In this document: in pieces, positions 4,541 to 60,391 of the stretch
Layout of the letters: every line of letters starts with the position of its first letter
How positions within the stretch are numbered: the stretch's first letter is position 1
Assembly (NCBI RefSeq): GCF_900605005.1
Contig: NZ_LR027558.1
Coordinates: 1,916,949-1,980,948, forward strand
Length of the DNA stretch: 64,000 nt
Direction of reading: 5' to 3'
Source: Acidipropionibacterium timonense
GTDB lineage: Bacteria; Actinomycetota; Actinomycetes; Propionibacteriales; Propionibacteriaceae
Program-made: the position numbers and the translations under genes
The notes under the pieces: generated by a model
Told to the model about the DNA's origin: nothing
The model's database searches: none
Seen by the model: the letters and a program-made list of their open reading frames with translations, nothing else

Positions 4541-4660
4541 GGTCTTGAGACCCGGCGTCAAGCCACGGCTTGCCGGGCGGCAACCCCTCGCGTCCCGTCG
4601 GGTGCCCCGTGTGACGACCCGGTCGCGCCACGAGGTGCGACAAGAGCGACGGCGCACCAC
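4541..4660 (+). promoter_or_regulatory. SAM-IV riboswitch
   Basis: The core matches the actinobacterial SAM-IV aptamer: GGTC at the 5' end, then GAGACCCGGCGTCAAGCCAC, GGCTTGCCGGGCGGCAACCC, and later GGTGCCCC...GTGTGACGACC. The terminal GGTC/GACC pair closes helix P1. It precedes a methionine ABC importer, the expected regulon of a SAM sensor. S-adenosylmethionine binding should lower expression. The 3' limit, including the pseudoknot hairpin after P1, is approximate. A covariance search with the Rfam SAM-IV model would be decisive. Confidence 0.88.
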
Positions 4661-52665: not shown

Positions 52666-53552
52666 GCCGCTGGCGTCTGGACATCGCCTACGACGGGACG
52701 AGCTTCTCCGGCTGGGCGACCCAGCCCGGCCTGCGCACCGTCCAGGGTGAGCTCGAGACGTGGGTCCCGCGGGTCCTGCGCCTGCCCGACCCCACCCCCC
52801 TCACGGTGGCCGGCCGCACCGACGCCGGGGTCCACGCCCGCGGTCAGGTGGCCCACGTCGACCTTCCCGACGGCCTCGACCCCCGCCCGGATCTCGGGCG
52901 CCGCCTGGCCCGAGTGCTCGACCCGGACCTCGTCGTCACCGACGTCACCGCGGCGCCCCAGGGTTTCGACGCCCGCTTCTCGGCCCTGTGGCGTCGCTAC
53001 GTGTACCGGCTCTGGGACGCCACCTCCCGGCCCGACCCGCTGGCCCGTCACCATGTCACCCGGGTCCGCGAGAGCCTCGACCTCACCAGGCTCGATGAAG
53101 CCGGCACCTCCCTGCTCGGGCTGCGCGACTTCGCCCCCTTCTGCAAGTGGCGTGAGGGCGCCTCGACGATCCGGACCCTGCTCGACTGTCACGCCGAGCG
53201 CCTGGCCGACCACTGCGGCACCATCGAGATCACCGTGCGCGCCGACGCCTTCTGCCACTCCATGGTGCGATCGCTCGTCGGGGCCCTCGTCGCGGTCGGC
53301 TCCGGTCGGCGCGACCGGGCCTGGTTGGACGAGATCGCCGCCTCGCCGACGCGCAGTTCGGCGGTGCTCGTCATGCCGGCCCGCGGACTCACCCTCGAGG
53401 AGGTCGGCTACCCGCCACCCGACCTCATGGCGGCCAGGGTCGCCGAGTCCCGCGCCCGCCGCACCTCCGCCGACCTCCACCGCGGGACGACCACTGCCGA
53501 CCCGACGGACTGCGACTGCATCCCGCCCGAGCCGACCGGAGGACCGCGATGA
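52662..53552 (+). CDS. truA: tRNA pseudouridine(38-40) synthase TruA
   Basis: Isomerises uridines 38-40 in the anticodon stem of tRNAs. The catalytic Asp is in VAGRTDAGVHARGQVAHVDL. Other family blocks are LDIAYDGTSFSGWATQPGLR, LWRRYVYRLWD, DFAPFCKWREGASTIRTL, DAFCHSMVRSLVGALVAVG, and PARGLTLEEVGYP. The C-terminal 45 residues are a hydrophilic extension (ARRTSADLHRGTTTADP and onward). 296 residues. It overlaps both trmB and the following methyltransferase by 4 nt, so the three are translationally coupled. Confidence 0.96.
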   Translation: MSRWRLDIAYDGTSFSGWATQPGLRTVQGELETWVPRVLRLPDPTPLTVAGRTDAGVHARGQVAHVDLPDGLDPRPDLGRRLARVLDPDLVVTDVTAAPQGFDARFSALWRRYVYRLWDATSRPDPLARHHVTRVRESLDLTRLDEAGTSLLGLRDFAPFCKWREGASTIRTLLDCHAERLADHCGTIEITVRADAFCHSMVRSLVGALVAVGSGRRDRAWLDEIAASPTRSSAVLVMPARGLTLEEVGYPPPDLMAARVAESRARRTSADLHRGTTTADPTDCDCIPPEPTGGPR

Positions 53553-54139
53553 GCCACTATTTCCAGACGCCGTCCGGCCCGGTCGAGCGGCGCACCATCA
53601 CCGCCCACATCTGGGATGAGGACCTCGACCTCGTCACCGCCGGAGGGGTCTTCTCCGGTTCACGCCTCGACCTGGGCACCTCGGTGCTGCTCCGTTCGGT
53701 GACGCCACCCCCGAGCCCCGGAACCTTCCTCGACCTGGGCTGCGGCTACGGACCAATCGCCTGCGCCCTGGCCAGGGCCGTCCCGGGGGCGCGGGTCGTC
53801 GCCGTCGACGTCAACGATCTGGCGGTCGAGCTCACCGGACTCAATGCCATGCGGCTGGGCGTCGGCGAGCGGGTGGAGGCCATGCGACCCGAGCAGGTCG
53901 ACCCCGACCTTCGCTTCGACGAGATCTGGTCGAACCCGCCGATCCGGGTCGGCAAGACCGTCCTCCACGAGATGCTCACGACCTGGCTGGAGCGGCTGAC
54001 CGAGGACGGCGTCGCCCATCTGGTCGTGGGGCGCAACCTCGGCGCCGACTCGCTGGCACGCTGGCTCGACGACCGGGGATGGCCCACGTCCCGCGTCGCC
54101 AGTGCCAAGGGGTTCCGGGTCCTCGACGTCACGAGGTGA
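53549..54139 (+). CDS. Class I SAM-dependent methyltransferase, RsmC/MTS-domain type
   Basis: Probable rRNA guanine-N2 methyltransferase (RsmC-like short form). The N-terminus SHYFQTPSGPVERRTITAHI includes the conserved HYF-type start. Motif I is TFLDLGCGYGPIACALARAV, then VVAVDVNDLAVELTGLNAM, and the N-P-P-Y-like catalytic motif WSNPPIRVGKTVLHEML. 196 residues, consisting of only one MTS domain, so it lacks the N-terminal domain of E. coli RsmC. Its target is inferred from family, not shown. Last gene of the trmB-truA cluster. Confidence 0.9.
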   Translation: MSHYFQTPSGPVERRTITAHIWDEDLDLVTAGGVFSGSRLDLGTSVLLRSVTPPPSPGTFLDLGCGYGPIACALARAVPGARVVAVDVNDLAVELTGLNAMRLGVGERVEAMRPEQVDPDLRFDEIWSNPPIRVGKTVLHEMLTTWLERLTEDGVAHLVVGRNLGADSLARWLDDRGWPTSRVASAKGFRVLDVTR

Positions 54140-54183: not shown

Positions 54184-54212
54184 TGACGAACCGCACACCA
54201 GGGGCATAGACT
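54184..54212 (+). promoter_or_regulatory. Promoter of the cobalamin-riboswitch operon
   Basis: TGACGA and TAGACT (with an extended GC ahead) are 17 bp apart. The predicted start lies at the 5' end of the riboswitch. Confidence 0.65.
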
Positions 54213-54216
54213 GCTG

Positions 54217-54330
54217 CGGTCCCGTCGGACGGGGAACACCGGTGAGAATCCGGGACTGACCCGCAACCGTGACGTCGCCCCAGGGCGGCGAAGCCGGAGC
54301 GCCGACCGCCGGGCACGACCCGCTGAAGTT
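54217..54330 (+). promoter_or_regulatory. Cobalamin riboswitch
   Basis: The sequence has the conserved core of the B12 riboswitch: GGAACACCGGTGAGAATCCG, GGACTGACCCGCAACCGTGA and the B12 box AAGCCGGAGCGCCGACCGCC. A hairpin (GTTCGT/ACGAAC, 54328-54346) and a second one (GCGACG/CGTCGC) lie between the aptamer and the GAGAGG ribosome site. They are candidates for a translational on/off switch. Adenosyl- or methylcobalamin should repress the downstream genes. Confidence 0.95.
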
Positions 54331-54400
54331 CGTCGAGGTCACGAACGGGTCGCGACGCCCGCCGTCGCGCTCACCCCTCGTGATGTCAGAGAGGTGTTCC

Positions 54401-55594
54401 ATGAAGACGTCGGCCGTCCTTGTCGCAGCCACCATGACCGTCACCCTGGGTCTGGCCCCACTGTCCACGTCCGCCACGACGGCCCGGGCCGCCCCCTCCA
54501 CCACGAGTTGCGCCCACAGGTCCTCGGCCACCGCAGCCGCCGACTGGGTCGCGGCCACCTACACGACGGACAGGTCCGCCTGGAACGGCGGGTCCTTGGC
54601 CCAGGGCATCATCGCCCTCGTCGGCGCCGGCGGACATGACAAGGACGTCGCCGAGCTCGACACCGCGATGGCGACCGCCTACCCGACCTACGCCAAGGGC
54701 GGCCCGGGGTCAATCGCGTACGTCCTCGTCGCCGTCGAGTCCCAAGGTCAGGACCCGACGTCCTGGCACGATCATGACCTCGTCGCCGAGTTGCGGTCGG
54801 CTCTCGCCAAGTCCCCGGACGGCGGCGGTTTCTTCGGACCGGGGCTGTCGGTCATCGCGCTGTCCCGCGCCGGCGCGACGGTTCCCGGCACGGTCCTCGA
54901 CGCCCTGCTCAAGACCCAGGGCAGCAACGGCGCCTTCGGCTACTATGACTTCTCCGACCCGACGAAGTTCACCGCCGACCCCGACTACACCGCCCTGGCC
55001 ATCGCCGCCCTCGACTCCCTGTCGTCGCCGAGCAGCGCCGCGTCGGCGGCCCTCGACAAGGCCATCGCCTGGGCCGAGAGTTCGCAGACCAAGGATCACT
55101 ACTGGGCGAACTATTCACCGGTCAACAGCACCGGCATGATGATCCCGGCCCTGGCCCAGGCCGGGGTCGATGTCTCGGCCTCGCAGGCCTGGCTCGCCAG
55201 CGAACTCAAGCGCTCCGGCGGGAAGGCCTTCGCCGCCTCCCCCGACTCGACCGAGCCCAACCTCATGGCGACCACCCAGGGCCTGTGGGGTCTCACCGGT
55301 TTCGGGCTGACGAACACCACTCCGGCGAAGGTCCGCGCCGCTGCGTCGGCGTGCAGTTCCTCCCCGACGCCGTCCACCTCGGCCTCCCCGACGACGCCGT
55401 CCCCGACCTCCTCGTCGACCCAGCCGAGCTCGACGAGCCCGGCGGCCACCCTTCCCGGCGCGACCTCGACCAGCTCCACCCGCCCGGTCCGGCTGCCCTC
55501 GACCGGTGACGACTCCTCGGTCGCCGGGCTCGCGGGCCTGGCCGTGCTGTCGTGGGTCCCCGCGATCCTCGTGGCCGCCCGTCGCAGGAAGTGA
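54401..55594 (+). CDS. LPXTG-anchored alpha-toroid protein, transcobalamin alpha-domain-like
   Basis: Predicted cell-wall-anchored cobalamin-capture protein. GAGAGG lies before the ATG. Residues 1-30 are a signal peptide ending in ARA. Residues about 45-315 are helical repeats of the terpenoid-cyclase/transcobalamin (intrinsic factor) alpha-toroid type: GGSLAQGIIALVGAGG, GGPGSIAYVLVAVESQG, DPDYTALAIAALDSL, NSTGMMIPALAQAGV, LMATTQGLWGLTGFG. A Ser/Thr/Pro linker (about 318-360) leads to the sortase motif LPSTG at 365-369, a hydrophobic helix and RRRK. B12 binding is inferred from fold pattern plus the upstream cobalamin riboswitch and the next gene. 397 residues. The stop overlaps the next start (GTGA). 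Confidence 0.85.
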   Translation: MKTSAVLVAATMTVTLGLAPLSTSATTARAAPSTTSCAHRSSATAAADWVAATYTTDRSAWNGGSLAQGIIALVGAGGHDKDVAELDTAMATAYPTYAKGGPGSIAYVLVAVESQGQDPTSWHDHDLVAELRSALAKSPDGGGFFGPGLSVIALSRAGATVPGTVLDALLKTQGSNGAFGYYDFSDPTKFTADPDYTALAIAALDSLSSPSSAASAALDKAIAWAESSQTKDHYWANYSPVNSTGMMIPALAQAGVDVSASQAWLASELKRSGGKAFAASPDSTEPNLMATTQGLWGLTGFGLTNTTPAKVRAAASACSSSPTPSTSASPTTPSPTSSSTQPSSTSPAATLPGATSTSSTRPVRLPSTGDDSSVAGLAGLAVLSWVPAILVAARRRK

Positions 55595-56556
55595 GGGTCG
55601 CGTTGATCGGCTGTCTGCGCCGACTCGTCGCCGTCGTGGCCCTGACCCTCCTGGCACTGCCGACGCTGGCGCCGGGCGGGGCGACCTCGGCCCACGCCAC
55701 CCTCCCGGTCAGGGCCATGCCGGCCAATGCGCGTGGGGACTGCCTGGCCTCGGGCAAGGTGTGGATGTACGTCGTCTACGAGGACGGCCCGGTCCTGTCG
55801 AACACCTGCGTCTCGAGCTTCTCGACCGGCACCGCCGCCCTCCAATCGGCCGGGGTGTCGATCGACCGGCGGTCCGACTCGATGATCTGTCGGCTCGACG
55901 GGTACCCCTCGGTGTGCCTGGAGTCGAGCCAGTTCCGCGGCCAGTACTGGACCTACTTCCACTCCACCGACGGCGTCACCTGGCAGTACTCCACCCTCGG
56001 TGCCGACAGCTACCATCCGAGGCCGGGGTCGATCGAGGGCTGGTGCTACAACAAGCCGGGCGTGTACCGGTGCACCCCCGGCACGCTGGCAGTGACCCGG
56101 ACGACCACGGCGCCCCGACCGACCGCCACGGCCACGTCGACCGCTCCGAGGCCGGGAGCGGCCACGACACGTGGGACCACCACCCGTGCCACCGAGACTC
56201 GGGCGGCGTCGAACGGCCCGACCCGGAGCCAACCCACGACCGGCACCTTCTCGGCCACCCCGGGCGGACAGCCCTCCCGACACGCGACGCCGATGTCCCC
56301 GGCGAGCACGCCCGGTCGAGCCGGCTCGGCGTCCTCCAGCGCCACCCCGGCAGCGTCGTCCGACTCCAGCACCCCGTCCGGCTCGTCCACCCCGACGATC
56401 GAGTCGGACGCCGGCACCGCCTCCCCCGCACCGGCCGCACCTGCGGGGGGCTCGGGCACCCCGTGGGGAGTCGTCACCGTTCTGGGGATCATCGTGCTCG
56501 GCGGTGCCGGGTTCGGCGGCTGGCGAGCGTACCGGGCACGAGGGGCACGGCGCTGA
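55591..56556 (+). CDS. Membrane-anchored DUF4430 protein, transcobalamin beta-domain-like
   Basis: Probable partner of the preceding alpha-toroid protein, supplying the beta domain that in human transcobalamin closes over B12. The GTG start overlaps the upstream stop by 4 nt. Signal peptide about 1-35. Residues about 48-150 match the DUF4430/transcobalamin C-terminal pattern: VWMYVVYEDGPVLSNTC, MICRLDGYPSVC, YWTYFHSTDGVTWQYSTLGA and PGSIEGWCYNKPGVYRC, with six Cys that could form disulfides. A Thr/Ser/Pro stalk of about 130 residues follows, then one membrane helix (WGVVTVLGIIVLGGAGFGGW) and a basic end, without LPXTG. 321 residues. Confidence 0.83.
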   Translation: MRVALIGCLRRLVAVVALTLLALPTLAPGGATSAHATLPVRAMPANARGDCLASGKVWMYVVYEDGPVLSNTCVSSFSTGTAALQSAGVSIDRRSDSMICRLDGYPSVCLESSQFRGQYWTYFHSTDGVTWQYSTLGADSYHPRPGSIEGWCYNKPGVYRCTPGTLAVTRTTTAPRPTATATSTAPRPGAATTRGTTTRATETRAASNGPTRSQPTTGTFSATPGGQPSRHATPMSPASTPGRAGSASSSATPAASSDSSTPSGSSTPTIESDAGTASPAPAAPAGGSGTPWGVVTVLGIIVLGGAGFGGWRAYRARGARR

Positions 56557-56559
56557 ACG

Positions 56560-57861
56560 GTGTCGCGCCTGCTCCCACGTCCAGCTGACCCCGTCGTCGA
56601 GCCGCCGTCCTCCACGCGGGGGCGGTCCGACGGCGGGACGAGGGACACCGTCCGCCCGACCAGGACCGGCAACCACCCCCGGACCACCCATCCCTGGGCC
56701 TGGTGGGCCTGGGCCCTGGGTACCGGGGCGGCGGTGAGCCTCACCAACAATCCGCTGCTCGTGTCGCTCGTCGTGGCCGCCGTCGTCCTCGTCGTCGTCA
56801 ACCGGCGCACCGACGACCCGTGGGCCCGCTCGGCCGGCACCTATCTCGTCCTGGCCCTCGTCATCATCGTCATCCGGATCTTCTTCCAGGTGACGATGGG
56901 GGCCCGCTCCGAGGGCACCGTGCTCCTGCGGCTGCCCCGGGTCGACCTGCCCGCCTGGGCGGCCGGGATCAGCCTGGGCGGGCCGGTGACCGCCGAGGGA
57001 CTGGCCGCCACGGGCTACGAGGCCCTCAAGCTCGCCGCGATGCTCGCCTGTTTCGGGGCAGCGAACTCCCTGGCGAACCCCCGTCGGGCGCTCAAGAGCG
57101 TCCCGGCGGCCCTGCACGACATCTCGGTGGCCGTCGTCATCGCCCTGTCGGTCTTCCCCCAGCTCATCGTCTCGGTCGGTCGGGTGCGCCGTGCCCGACG
57201 GCTCCGCGGCGGGCGATCCACCGGCCTGCGGGCGATCGGGGCCATCGTCGTCCCGGTCCTCGAGGACGCCGTCGAGTCGTCCATGGCCCTGGCCCGGAGC
57301 ATGGAGTCACGCGGCTACGGCCGTACCCGCCAGGGACGTCGCGTGCCGCGCGGCACGGCCGCCCTCCTCGTCGTCTCGGTGCTGCTGCTCGTCGTGAGCA
57401 GCTACGCCATCCTGGCGAACCCCACCGGGTACTTCGCCCCCGATCCGGCCACCTGCACCCCCGGAACCCTGTGCGGCTGGCTGTTCGGTGACCGGTTCGG
57501 CCAGCGGGTGGGCATCATCCTGCTCCTCATGTCCCTGGTGGGGGTGGTCATCGGCCTGCGGTCGTCGGGACGCCGGCTGGGGCTGACGCGGTACCGGCCG
57601 GACCCCTGGACCCTGCGTTCGACCCTGTGCGCCGCGTGCGGCCTGGTGGCCCTGGCCGTGATGATCGGGCTCAACCGGGCCATCCCCGCGCAGATCACCG
57701 TCTCGACGAGTCCGCTGGGTTGGCCTCCGCTGCACCCCGCCATGATCGCGGTGGCGGCGGTCGTCGCGGCTCCCGCCGTGCTCACCGTCGCGCCGCCGCG
57801 GCGTCCCGGTCACACGGCGTCGACGACGACCCTGCCGCGCAGCTGTGAGGAGAACTCATGA
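56560..57861 (+). CDS. ECF transporter T component EcfT (enlarged)
   Basis: Membrane scaffold linking an ECF substrate-binding S component to the ATPases. The GTG start is 3 bp after the previous stop. The cytoplasmic coupling motifs are RVRRARRLRGGRS and LARSMESRGYGRTRQGRR, the typical EcfT Ala-Arg signatures. The hydrophobic core has TNNPLLVSLVVAAVVLVVV, YLVLALVIIVIRIFFQV and LKLAAMLACFGAANSL. At 433 residues it exceeds the usual 220-270: after the signatures there are several extra C-terminal helices, and a 45-residue polar N-terminus is added. The stop overlaps the next start (ATGA). Confidence 0.9.
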   Translation: MSRLLPRPADPVVEPPSSTRGRSDGGTRDTVRPTRTGNHPRTTHPWAWWAWALGTGAAVSLTNNPLLVSLVVAAVVLVVVNRRTDDPWARSAGTYLVLALVIIVIRIFFQVTMGARSEGTVLLRLPRVDLPAWAAGISLGGPVTAEGLAATGYEALKLAAMLACFGAANSLANPRRALKSVPAALHDISVAVVIALSVFPQLIVSVGRVRRARRLRGGRSTGLRAIGAIVVPVLEDAVESSMALARSMESRGYGRTRQGRRVPRGTAALLVVSVLLLVVSSYAILANPTGYFAPDPATCTPGTLCGWLFGDRFGQRVGIILLLMSLVGVVIGLRSSGRRLGLTRYRPDPWTLRSTLCAACGLVALAVMIGLNRAIPAQITVSTSPLGWPPLHPAMIAVAAVVAAPAVLTVAPPRRPGHTASTTTLPRSCEENS

Positions 57862-59546
57862 ATCCGGCCATCATCCTCGACGACGTCACGCTCACCCACC
57901 CGGGGGCGTCGACGCCGACCCTGCGTCAGGTCGACGTCGAGATCGCCGAGGGCGACCTGGCCCTGCTCGTCGGCCGCACCGGCACCGGCAAGTCGACCCT
58001 GCTGTCGAGCCTCAACGGGCTCGTGCCGCACTTCACCGGTGGGCGTCTGGACGGCCGCGTCCTCGTCGCCGGCCGGGACACCCGCTCCTGTCGGCCGCGT
58101 GACCTGGCCGAGGTGGTCGGAGTCGTCGGGCAGAACCCGCTGGCCGGGTTCGTCACCGACACCGTCGAGGACGAGATCGCCTACGGCATGGAGCAGCTCG
58201 GGATCTCCGCGTCGATCATGCGCAAACGGGTCGAGGAGACCCTCGACCTCATGGGCATCGCGGATCTGCGTCGACGCCCCCTGCTCGACCTGTCCGGGGG
58301 GCAGCAGCAGCGCGTCGCCATCGCGGCGGTCCTGGCCGCCCAGCCGCGCATCCTCGTCCTCGACGAGCCGACGAGCGCCCTCGATCCCACCGCCGCCCAG
58401 GACGTCCTGGCTGCCATCACGACCCTCGTCGACGAGGTCGGGCTCACCGTCGTCCTGGCCGAGCATCGTCTCGAGCGGGTCATGCACGCCGCCGACACGG
58501 TGCTGTGGCTGCCCGGGGACGGCAGCGTCGTCCAGGGCGAGCCCAGACAGGTCCTCGCCAGGGCCGACGTCGTCCCCCCGCTGGCCGCGCTGGCCCGGGA
58601 ACTCGGCTGGCCGACCGTGCCCTCGTCGGTGCGCCGGGCCCGACGCCGTATCGGGGCCCAACCGGGCCTGCCGGTGGCCCCGGCGCCGACCGAGGCGATG
58701 AGCTGGGATCCCGGCGACCACCCGGACGTGCTCGTCACCACCGGACTGGCCGTGAGCTACGGCGACCTCGTCGCGGTCGACCACCTCGACCTGGCTCTCC
58801 AGGCCGGTACGGTCACCGCCCTCATGGGTCGCAACGGCGCCGGCAAGTCGTCGCTCCTGTGGGCCCTCCAAGGGGCGACGCGGTCCTCCGGGAAGGTCGA
58901 GGTGAGGCAGGCCGGCGGGCATGGCGCGGACCCTCGGCGGGCCGACCCCGCCACCGCCAGGACCCTCGTCACCCTCGTCCCGCAGACCGCCTCCGACCTG
59001 CTCTACCTGCCCAGCGTCGGCGCCGAGTGCCATCAGGCCGACACGGAGTCGGGGGTGCCCGAGGGCACGACCGCCGCCCTCCTGCGCACCCTGGGCGTCG
59101 ACCTGCCGGCCGATCGGGACCCGCGTGATCTCTCGGAGGGGCAAAGGCTGGCCCTCGTGCTCGCCATCCAACTGTCGGCGCGGCCCGCCGTCGTCCTCCT
59201 CGACGAACCGACCCGCGGTCTCGACTACGCCATGAAACGGGAGCTCGGACGGATCATCCGGCAGATCGCCGACGGAGGGTCCTCGACTCCGGCAGCGCAT
59301 CCGGCGGCCGTCGTCGTGTCCACCCATGACGTCGAGTTCGCGGCCGCCACGAGCGACCGGACGATCGTCCTGGCCGACGGCCAGGTCGTCGCTGACGGGA
59401 CCACCCGAGCCGTGTGCACCTCCTCGCCGGCCTTCTCCCCCCAGATCGCCAAGGTGTTCCATCCCGCCGATCTGCTCACCGTCGCCGACGTCCGGGCCAA
59501 CCGCGACCTGCTCCACCTGCCGACCGGACCCGAGGACGTCCGATGA
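57858..59546 (+). CDS. ECF transporter ATPase EcfA, tandem double-domain
   Basis: Two ABC ATPase domains in one chain replace the separate EcfA1 and EcfA2. Domain 1 (1-260) has VGRTGTGKSTLLSSLNGL, LSGGQQQRVAIAAVLA, ILVLDEPTSALDP and VVLAEHRLERV. Domain 2 (about 290-560) has MGRNGAGKSSLLWALQGA, the deviating signature LSEGQRLALVLAIQL, VVLLDEPTRGLDY and VVSTHDVEFAAA. Both Q-loops are visible (VGQNPLAG and VPQTASDLL). 562 residues. Overlaps the EcfT stop and the EcfS start by 4 nt each, so the ECF genes form one coupled unit. Confidence 0.94.
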   Translation: MNPAIILDDVTLTHPGASTPTLRQVDVEIAEGDLALLVGRTGTGKSTLLSSLNGLVPHFTGGRLDGRVLVAGRDTRSCRPRDLAEVVGVVGQNPLAGFVTDTVEDEIAYGMEQLGISASIMRKRVEETLDLMGIADLRRRPLLDLSGGQQQRVAIAAVLAAQPRILVLDEPTSALDPTAAQDVLAAITTLVDEVGLTVVLAEHRLERVMHAADTVLWLPGDGSVVQGEPRQVLARADVVPPLAALARELGWPTVPSSVRRARRRIGAQPGLPVAPAPTEAMSWDPGDHPDVLVTTGLAVSYGDLVAVDHLDLALQAGTVTALMGRNGAGKSSLLWALQGATRSSGKVEVRQAGGHGADPRRADPATARTLVTLVPQTASDLLYLPSVGAECHQADTESGVPEGTTAALLRTLGVDLPADRDPRDLSEGQRLALVLAIQLSARPAVVLLDEPTRGLDYAMKRELGRIIRQIADGGSSTPAAHPAAVVVSTHDVEFAAATSDRTIVLADGQVVADGTTRAVCTSSPAFSPQIAKVFHPADLLTVADVRANRDLLHLPTGPEDVR

Positions 59547-60391
59547 GGACGACGTGGACCGCCCGGGCCCTCCTCGTCCTCACTGCGGTGCTCGGGCTGG
59601 TGGCCTTCTGCTGGCCTCTGGTGCTCTCCCCCGGGTCGATCGCCGACTACCAGACGCGCACCCCCTTCCTCTTCGCCGCCATCCTGCCGGTGGCCCTCGT
59701 CGTCGTCGTGAGCCAGATGTCGGCCGACGGGATCGACGTCAAGGCCCTGGCGATGCTCGGGGTGCTCACCGCCTGCGGTGCCGGGCTCAGGCCCTTGGGG
59801 GCGGGCACGGCCGGGATCGAGTTCGTCTTCCTCCTCATCGTCCTGGGCGGACGGGTGTTCGGCGCGGCCTTCGGCTTCGTCCTGGGCACGACGACGCTCT
59901 TCACCTCGGCCCTGCTCACCGCCGGGTTCGGGCCCTGGTTGCCGTACCAGATGGTGGCCGCGGGGTTCGTCGGGTTGGGCGCCGGGCTACTGCCGCGGCG
60001 TCTGCACGGGTGGGCCGAGACCGCCGCCCTGGCGCTCTACGCGTCCTTCGCGTCATTCGCCTACGGCTGGCTCATGGACTTCTCGTTCTGGCCCTTCAAC
60101 CTCGGCATGGCCACGCAGATCTCGTACCGGCCCGATGCCCCCGTCCTCACGAACCTGTGGCACTTCGTCCTGTTCAACCTCGCCACCTCGATGGGCTGGA
60201 ACCTCGGCCGAGCGGTGACGAACGTCATCCTCATCGTCCTCGTCGGCCAGCCCGTCATGAGGGTGCTGCGGCGGGCGGCACGGCGGGCCCAGTGGGGTCT
60301 GTCGGACGCCGCCTCACTCGCGGGTGGGCCAGGACAGCTGCACCAGCCCAAGCGTCCAGACGGACCCGACCTGTCGCGTGGAGGGTCCTGA
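59543..60391 (+). CDS. ECF transporter S component (predicted cobalamin/corrinoid specificity)
   Basis: Substrate-binding membrane subunit of the ECF importer. The start overlaps the EcfA stop (ATGA). About six hydrophobic helices are seen: ALLVLTAVLGLVAFCWPLVL, PFLFAAILPVALVVVV, LAMLGVLTACGAGLRPLGAG, FVFLLIVLGGRVFGAAFGF, ALALYASFASFAYGWLMDFS, VTNVILIVLVGQPVMRVL. Gly-rich GAGLRPLGAGTAGIEF is a likely loop of the pocket. No family-specific substrate signature is recognised by eye, so cobalamin is inferred from the riboswitch and the upstream transcobalamin-like proteins. 282 residues, slightly longer than the usual 180-220 because of a hydrophilic C-terminus. Convergent with the next gene, 3 bp apart. 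Confidence 0.85.
   Translation: MRTTWTARALLVLTAVLGLVAFCWPLVLSPGSIADYQTRTPFLFAAILPVALVVVVSQMSADGIDVKALAMLGVLTACGAGLRPLGAGTAGIEFVFLLIVLGGRVFGAAFGFVLGTTTLFTSALLTAGFGPWLPYQMVAAGFVGLGAGLLPRRLHGWAETAALALYASFASFAYGWLMDFSFWPFNLGMATQISYRPDAPVLTNLWHFVLFNLATSMGWNLGRAVTNVILIVLVGQPVMRVLRRAARRAQWGLSDAASLAGGPGQLHQPKRPDGPDLSRGGS

Follow-up and report, generated by a model that had tools for sequence, protein, structure and literature searches.

A riboswitch-linked actinobacterial operon encoding a putative split, doubly anchored transcobalamin and an ECF-type importer

The animal B12 carriers transcobalamin, intrinsic factor and haptocorrin combine a toroid alpha domain with a beta-grasp domain that carries a hairpin after its helix. 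The beta domain binds the vitamin first and the alpha domain then closes over it (PMC11107200). The isolated beta domain of human transcobalamin binds B12 alone; when its alpha and beta domains are expressed separately, they elute together only if cyanocobalamin is present (PMC5599065). In bacteria, Burroughs et al. (2007) described surface proteins with SLBB and toroid domains, some of them with Gram-positive anchors, which are encoded in CbiO/CbiQ operons and for which B12 scavenging was proposed. Bacteria with such proteins usually lack key B12-synthesis genes (PMC1796856). ECF-type import of B12 has been established for ECF-CbrT from Lactobacillus delbrueckii (PMC5997447).

We analyzed an operon located in a 64,000-nt stretch of DNA (the window). 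Its features are listed in Table 1. The five plus-strand genes sit between a methyltransferase gene (53549–54139) and a membrane-protein gene on the opposite strand, which starts beyond position 60391. Downstream of the riboswitch the gene order is alpha (toroid), beta (beta-grasp), EcfT, fused EcfA and EcfS. All genes named in the original prediction were found where it had placed them, i.e. an LPXTG-type alpha protein, a membrane-bound beta protein, EcfT, a double EcfA and EcfS; the operon is real. Four-nucleotide overlaps, said to be present at almost all gene borders, occur at three of the four junctions (GTGA, ATGA, ATGA), and the GTG start of beta overlaps the stop codon of alpha. Beta and EcfT, however, are separated by a gap of 3 nt. 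The promoter that had been claimed found no support, as a search for a sigma-70-like consensus promoter and a terminator returned neither.

Table 1. Features of the operon (positions refer to the window).
Feature	Position	Strand	Basis
Cobalamin (AdoCbl-type) riboswitch aptamer	54206–54355	+	RF01482, 42.6 bits, E 1e-6, full length; below gathering cut-off
Alpha protein, 397 aa, predicted secreted alpha/alpha toroid with LPXTG sorting signal	54401–55594	+	Family and PDB profile matches
Predicted toroid domain of alpha	54494–55330	+	Two sequence alignments
LPSTG sortase motif of alpha, followed by hydrophobic helix and RRRK tail	55493–55507	+	Sequence
Beta protein, 321 aa: predicted signal peptide, beta-grasp domain, Pro/Ser/Thr-rich linker, C-terminal membrane helix	55591–56556	+	GTG start
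Predicted transcobalamin beta-like (DUF4430/SLBB) domain	55732–56055	+	Model and VIA comparison
Predicted C-terminal membrane anchor of beta, no LPXTG	56458–56553	+	Hydropathy
EcfT energy-coupling membrane protein	56560–57861	+	PF02361 (CbiQ), 36.5 bits, cut-off 25
Fused double EcfA ATPase, two Walker A and two signature motifs	57858–59546	+	ABC_tran, 156 bits, two stretches
Putative EcfS substrate-binding membrane component	59543–60391	+	PF12822, E 2.6e-4, below cut-off

Like the systems of Burroughs et al., the window encodes a toroid and a transcobalamin-type beta-grasp domain, secreted or wall-anchored, together with CbiO/CbiQ-type genes. It differs from them in that the domains reside on two differently anchored proteins and in having a predicted riboswitch, a putative dedicated S component and B12-synthesis genes in the same genome (PMC1796856). 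As with ECF-CbrT (PMC5997447), cobalamin is the proposed cargo of an ECF-type importer, but the window module is dedicated and operon-encoded, its ATPases are fused and its S component has no detectable sequence similarity to solved structures. The animal carriers share the two domain types with the window, where these form two separate anchored proteins instead of one soluble chain and cobalamin is a putative ligand. BtuG of Bacteroidetes is another surface protein that binds B12 ahead of a transporter. BtuG and its counterpart BtuH differ from the window system by their folds, their outer-membrane setting and TonB-dependent transport. What is shared with BtuH (PMC8941943), also a surface B12 binder of Bacteroidetes, is the (here proposed) capture of B12 at the surface ahead of the transporter.

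Such a receptor had been called poorly described. The actinobacterial form, split and held by two different anchors, does appear unstudied, as does its broad distribution, whereas surface toroid and SLBB proteins with CbiO/CbiQ are already found in PMC1796856. Nor is the split unusual in itself: within the family and order that we examined, alpha and beta are normally encoded by separate genes ahead of EcfT. Alpha and beta have their best matches in NCBIfam families SCO2321_fam and SCO2322_fam, far under the curated cut-offs; both families are named for Streptomyces proteins and have no assigned function. A search limited to a library of open-access papers returned no study of a SCO2321/SCO2322 operon. 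Our analysis suggests a functional link for both families. Also new is the presence of the system beside B12-synthesis genes and another importer.

The RF01482 alignment of the riboswitch covers model positions 1–149 with a mean posterior of 0.95, and the conserved core and the B12 box are present. The score lies below the Rfam gathering cut-off (42.6 versus 50 bits); the element was missed at default settings and detected with permissive settings only. We nevertheless accepted the predicted B12 riboswitch, because its core is complete and relatives have riboswitches at the equivalent place. Riboswitches stand at the start of at least 12 such loci; two of these score under the gathering cut-off. 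When the sequence ahead of the alpha start was folded locally, no expression platform emerged that was significant or convincing (z-score -0.41). We infer that the riboswitch controls the operon, and in which direction. A SAM-IV riboswitch is located elsewhere in the window (4541–4652, 81.6 bits).

The match of alpha to SCO2321_fam has an E-value of 7e-12 and 44.9 bits (curated cut-off 300). Toroid families match the aligned relatives of alpha, one of which also matches the eukaryotic Pfam family PF01122 (Cobalamin_bind) with an E-value of 3.3e-6. A search of the alpha profile against PDB toroids resulted in an E-value of 3.7e-36. By its sequence, alpha is a predicted sortase substrate, having an LPXTG motif, a hydrophobic helix and a basic tail, and the genome carries three sortase genes. 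The earlier description as an LPXTG-anchored alpha-toroid protein thus holds for the LPSTG signal with its RRRK tail as well as for the toroid, indicated by family and PDB profile matches.

For beta, the match to SCO2322_fam has an E-value of 9e-7 and 29.4 bits, also below the curated cut-off (85). It had been predicted as a membrane-anchored DUF4430/beta-domain protein. The C-terminal helix and a transcobalamin beta-type fold agree with this, but Pfam DUF4430 (PF14478) did not match window beta; among 35 relatives six gave a match, the best with an E-value of 0.0029. We assign window beta to DUF4430 because relatives match and the fold agrees. The domain was modeled from eight sequences (pLDDT 78, pTM 0.73) and the model adopts a beta-grasp fold with a beta-hairpin after the helix, matching transcobalamin beta. 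In a VIA comparison, haptocorrin, transcobalamin and intrinsic factor accounted for 14 of the top 15 rows with Z from 9.1 to 7.8 (next row 5.4), which bears out the beta domain on the level of fold prediction. The remaining row of the 15 is 3u7z, a Ruminococcus gnavus protein without known ligand. Foldseek alone placed the same B12-carrier families first with weak E-values (best 0.015), and a search of the beta profile against PDB sequences yielded nothing relevant. The transcobalamin-type folds proposed for the window system are based on models, and AlphaFold was trained on transcobalamin, which is a caveat.

The division of the two domains between differently anchored surface proteins agrees with the original prediction. 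Judged from motifs and hydropathy, alpha would be held by its LPSTG signal and beta by a C-terminal helix without LPXTG. In a tree of beta domains, window beta groups with EcfT-adjacent or membrane betas (100/98) and not with fused ones; many deeper forks of this tree are unsupported.

In several relatives alpha and beta are fused in one chain, sometimes alongside a separate membrane beta. We modeled a fused homologue from C. porci using two sequences; the alignment was limited to two rows because MAFFT misplaced window alpha once beta rows were joined. The model has a mean pLDDT of 50.8 (about 30 for the beta part). Its best Foldseek matches are whole transcobalamin chains (E 1.5e-6), and VIA gave whole transcobalamin a Z of about 20, whereas the best-scoring toroid that is not a B12 carrier reached 17.7. 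At this model quality, the match is supportive, not strong, for reading the window proteins as a split transcobalamin. Fused alpha-beta proteins and proteins of beta plus leucine-rich repeats in three other loci (L033, L039, L052) stop right after LPxTGV, with a reading frame that lacks the hydrophobic helix and the basic tail. One of these loci (L033, 8084–8463) contains two divergent, back-to-back B12 riboswitches, one leading to an alpha-beta fusion and the other to a beta plus leucine-rich-repeat protein.

Based on these data we propose that the operon is B12-responsive and probably serves the capture and import of cobalamin or other cobamides by means of a split transcobalamin. At low intracellular coenzyme B12 the riboswitch would permit expression. 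Wall-anchored alpha and membrane-tethered beta would act jointly, the corrinoid binding to beta first and alpha then closing over the ligand. Beta, tethered beside the transporter, would pass the corrinoid to the S component, and EcfT with the fused EcfA would then take it up at the expense of ATP. Ligand binding, clamp formation, binding order and hand-off are inferred here, the clamp by analogy to the animal carriers. A clamp made of two proteins is plausible because the domains of human transcobalamin assemble only around B12 (PMC5599065).

The distribution of the genes bears on this clamp. Most of the loci examined from the family and order have beta directly ahead of EcfT, and many have alpha ahead of beta; across many actinobacterial genomes beta lies just before EcfT and alpha is optional. 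The beta profile matched 83 of the 148 class genomes, representing 48 of 82 genera; many of the weaker matches cover only the C-terminal half of the domain. In small actinobacterial genomes of 1.2–1.4 Mb (G081, G099, G116 and similar ones) we observed short proteins of 181–217 aa with a partial beta-domain match. Genomes G011 and G026 have beta and ECF genes and no detectable alpha; alpha is therefore not obligatory, and beta may suffice. The constant place of beta next to EcfT fits a delivery role. It would also suit an arrangement without a shared clamp, in which beta is the lone surface receptor of the ECF importer and alpha an independent wall-bound scavenger or store of B12. That human transcobalamin beta binds B12 by itself (PMC5599065) would be in line with such independence, and so would the alpha paralogues at other places, which stand alone under riboswitch control or form a lipoprotein. 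However, the adjacency of alpha and beta in many loci, their fusion in several relatives and the overlap of the alpha stop with the beta start in the window argue for cooperation, and we regard separate roles as unlikely, albeit the strongest competitor of the split transcobalamin.

Within the genus of the window, which we took as Cutibacterium, EcfT-A-S genes of G001 and G003 to G008 have no adjacent alpha or beta, and the loci scanned contain no riboswitch at gathering beside them, which speaks against the proposed system. In G002, a single contig, a riboswitch and a beta gene are located near the end of the record and EcfA and EcfS at its start; because of these positions, the operon probably runs on from the end of the record into its start.

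Of the importer components, the fused EcfA has ECF ATPase families as its best matches. With respect to a group I (dedicated) ECF module, we found an EcfT, two ECF-type ATPases and a putative S component with a weak match to PF12822. Relatives of EcfS are present in 50 of 57 related genomes, beside EcfT and EcfA in the loci fetched. A profile of 21 EcfS relatives matched no PDB chain up to an E-value of 10, CbrT included, and the specificity of the S component is not readable from its sequence.

Related propionibacteria had been pointed out as makers of B12, and the genome indeed holds a cob/cbi cluster, with CbiC inside it, as well as CobQ, CbiL, CobT, CobU and CbiM-type cobalt import. Methylmalonyl-CoA mutase genes lie behind a riboswitch. 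Another riboswitch leads a BtuCD-type importer with a BtuC/FhuB-type permease. Given the B12-synthesis genes and this importer, the need for the window system is not obvious; it is probably an additional B12 route. The gene content also touches the nature of the ligand, which might be another corrinoid or a precursor such as cobinamide, or a different B12-regulated compound, instead of complete cobalamin. The riboswitch indicates B12-responsive regulation only, the S component is silent on specificity, and the organism has CobU and CobT genes, for salvage and for attaching the lower ligand. Against this, the beta fold matches carriers of cobalamin, and we rate a different ligand as improbable, slightly more so than separate roles of alpha and beta. 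Cobalt is unlikely because the cob/cbi cluster holds a CbiM-type cobalt system of its own.

Three regions have been described in C. acnes where riboswitches lie ahead of adhesin-like pseudogene fragments and of proteins with thrombospondin type-3 repeats, without a role being assigned to them (PMC9600381). An interrupted alpha-toroid reading frame occurs three times in G003 (L081, L082, L083), and at least 2.5 kb is identical between the copies. A weak riboswitch match (23.4 bits, below gathering) lies about 240 bases upstream of each copy, and an SGNH-hydrolase-like reading frame follows it. These copies may correspond to the C. acnes riboswitch regions. Uninterrupted proteins led by B12 riboswitches are found in G002 (L087, 4405–6615; L093, 5051–7177) and contain alpha-toroid, GDSL/SGNH-hydrolase-like, PKD and TSP3 parts. 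Of 18 alpha matches in the window's genus, 15 follow closely on a riboswitch of the same strand, in several cases one below gathering; as a 2.5 Mb genome holds about 14 riboswitches, well under one such pairing is expected by chance. The toroid system would likely explain the riboswitch-controlled "adhesin/thrombospondin-repeat" genes reported for C. acnes.

These genes might also be taken to mean that the surface proteins are adhesins or antigens which share folds with B12 carriers and act outside uptake. Their LPXTG anchoring and the naming of the related C. acnes genes as adhesin fragments (PMC9600381) would suit such a role. The conserved placement beside EcfT, EcfA and EcfS and the specific match to B12 carriers make it very improbable compared with a split transcobalamin. 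A second stretch led by a B12 riboswitch was observed in the window genome (L075 and L021, G000:C1:2682600-2696020). It encodes secreted proteins, EcfT-, EcfA- and EcfS-like proteins (weak matches), MoxR, DUF58, VWA and RCC1-repeat proteins and an alpha-toroid lipoprotein. What looks like an equivalent operon is present in G005 (L074, L039).

In its broadest form, which we put forward tentatively and at somewhat less than even chance, our proposal describes a general actinobacterial B12 receptor. Separately anchored transcobalamin halves would close over B12 between wall and membrane and pass it to an ECF importer. The toroid half would have given rise, in Cutibacterium, to a whole family of surface proteins under B12-riboswitch control, some members of which carry SGNH-hydrolase-like and thrombospondin-repeat parts as fusions; the C. 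acnes riboswitch genes would thereby be explained. Why B12 should regulate surface proteins in skin Cutibacterium becomes a testable question. A role is also suggested for two protein families of actinobacteria that have no assigned function. If true, the system would reveal how B12 is retained on the surface of Gram-positive cells until an ECF transporter takes it up, and it would support a bacterial origin for parts of the animal B12 carriers.
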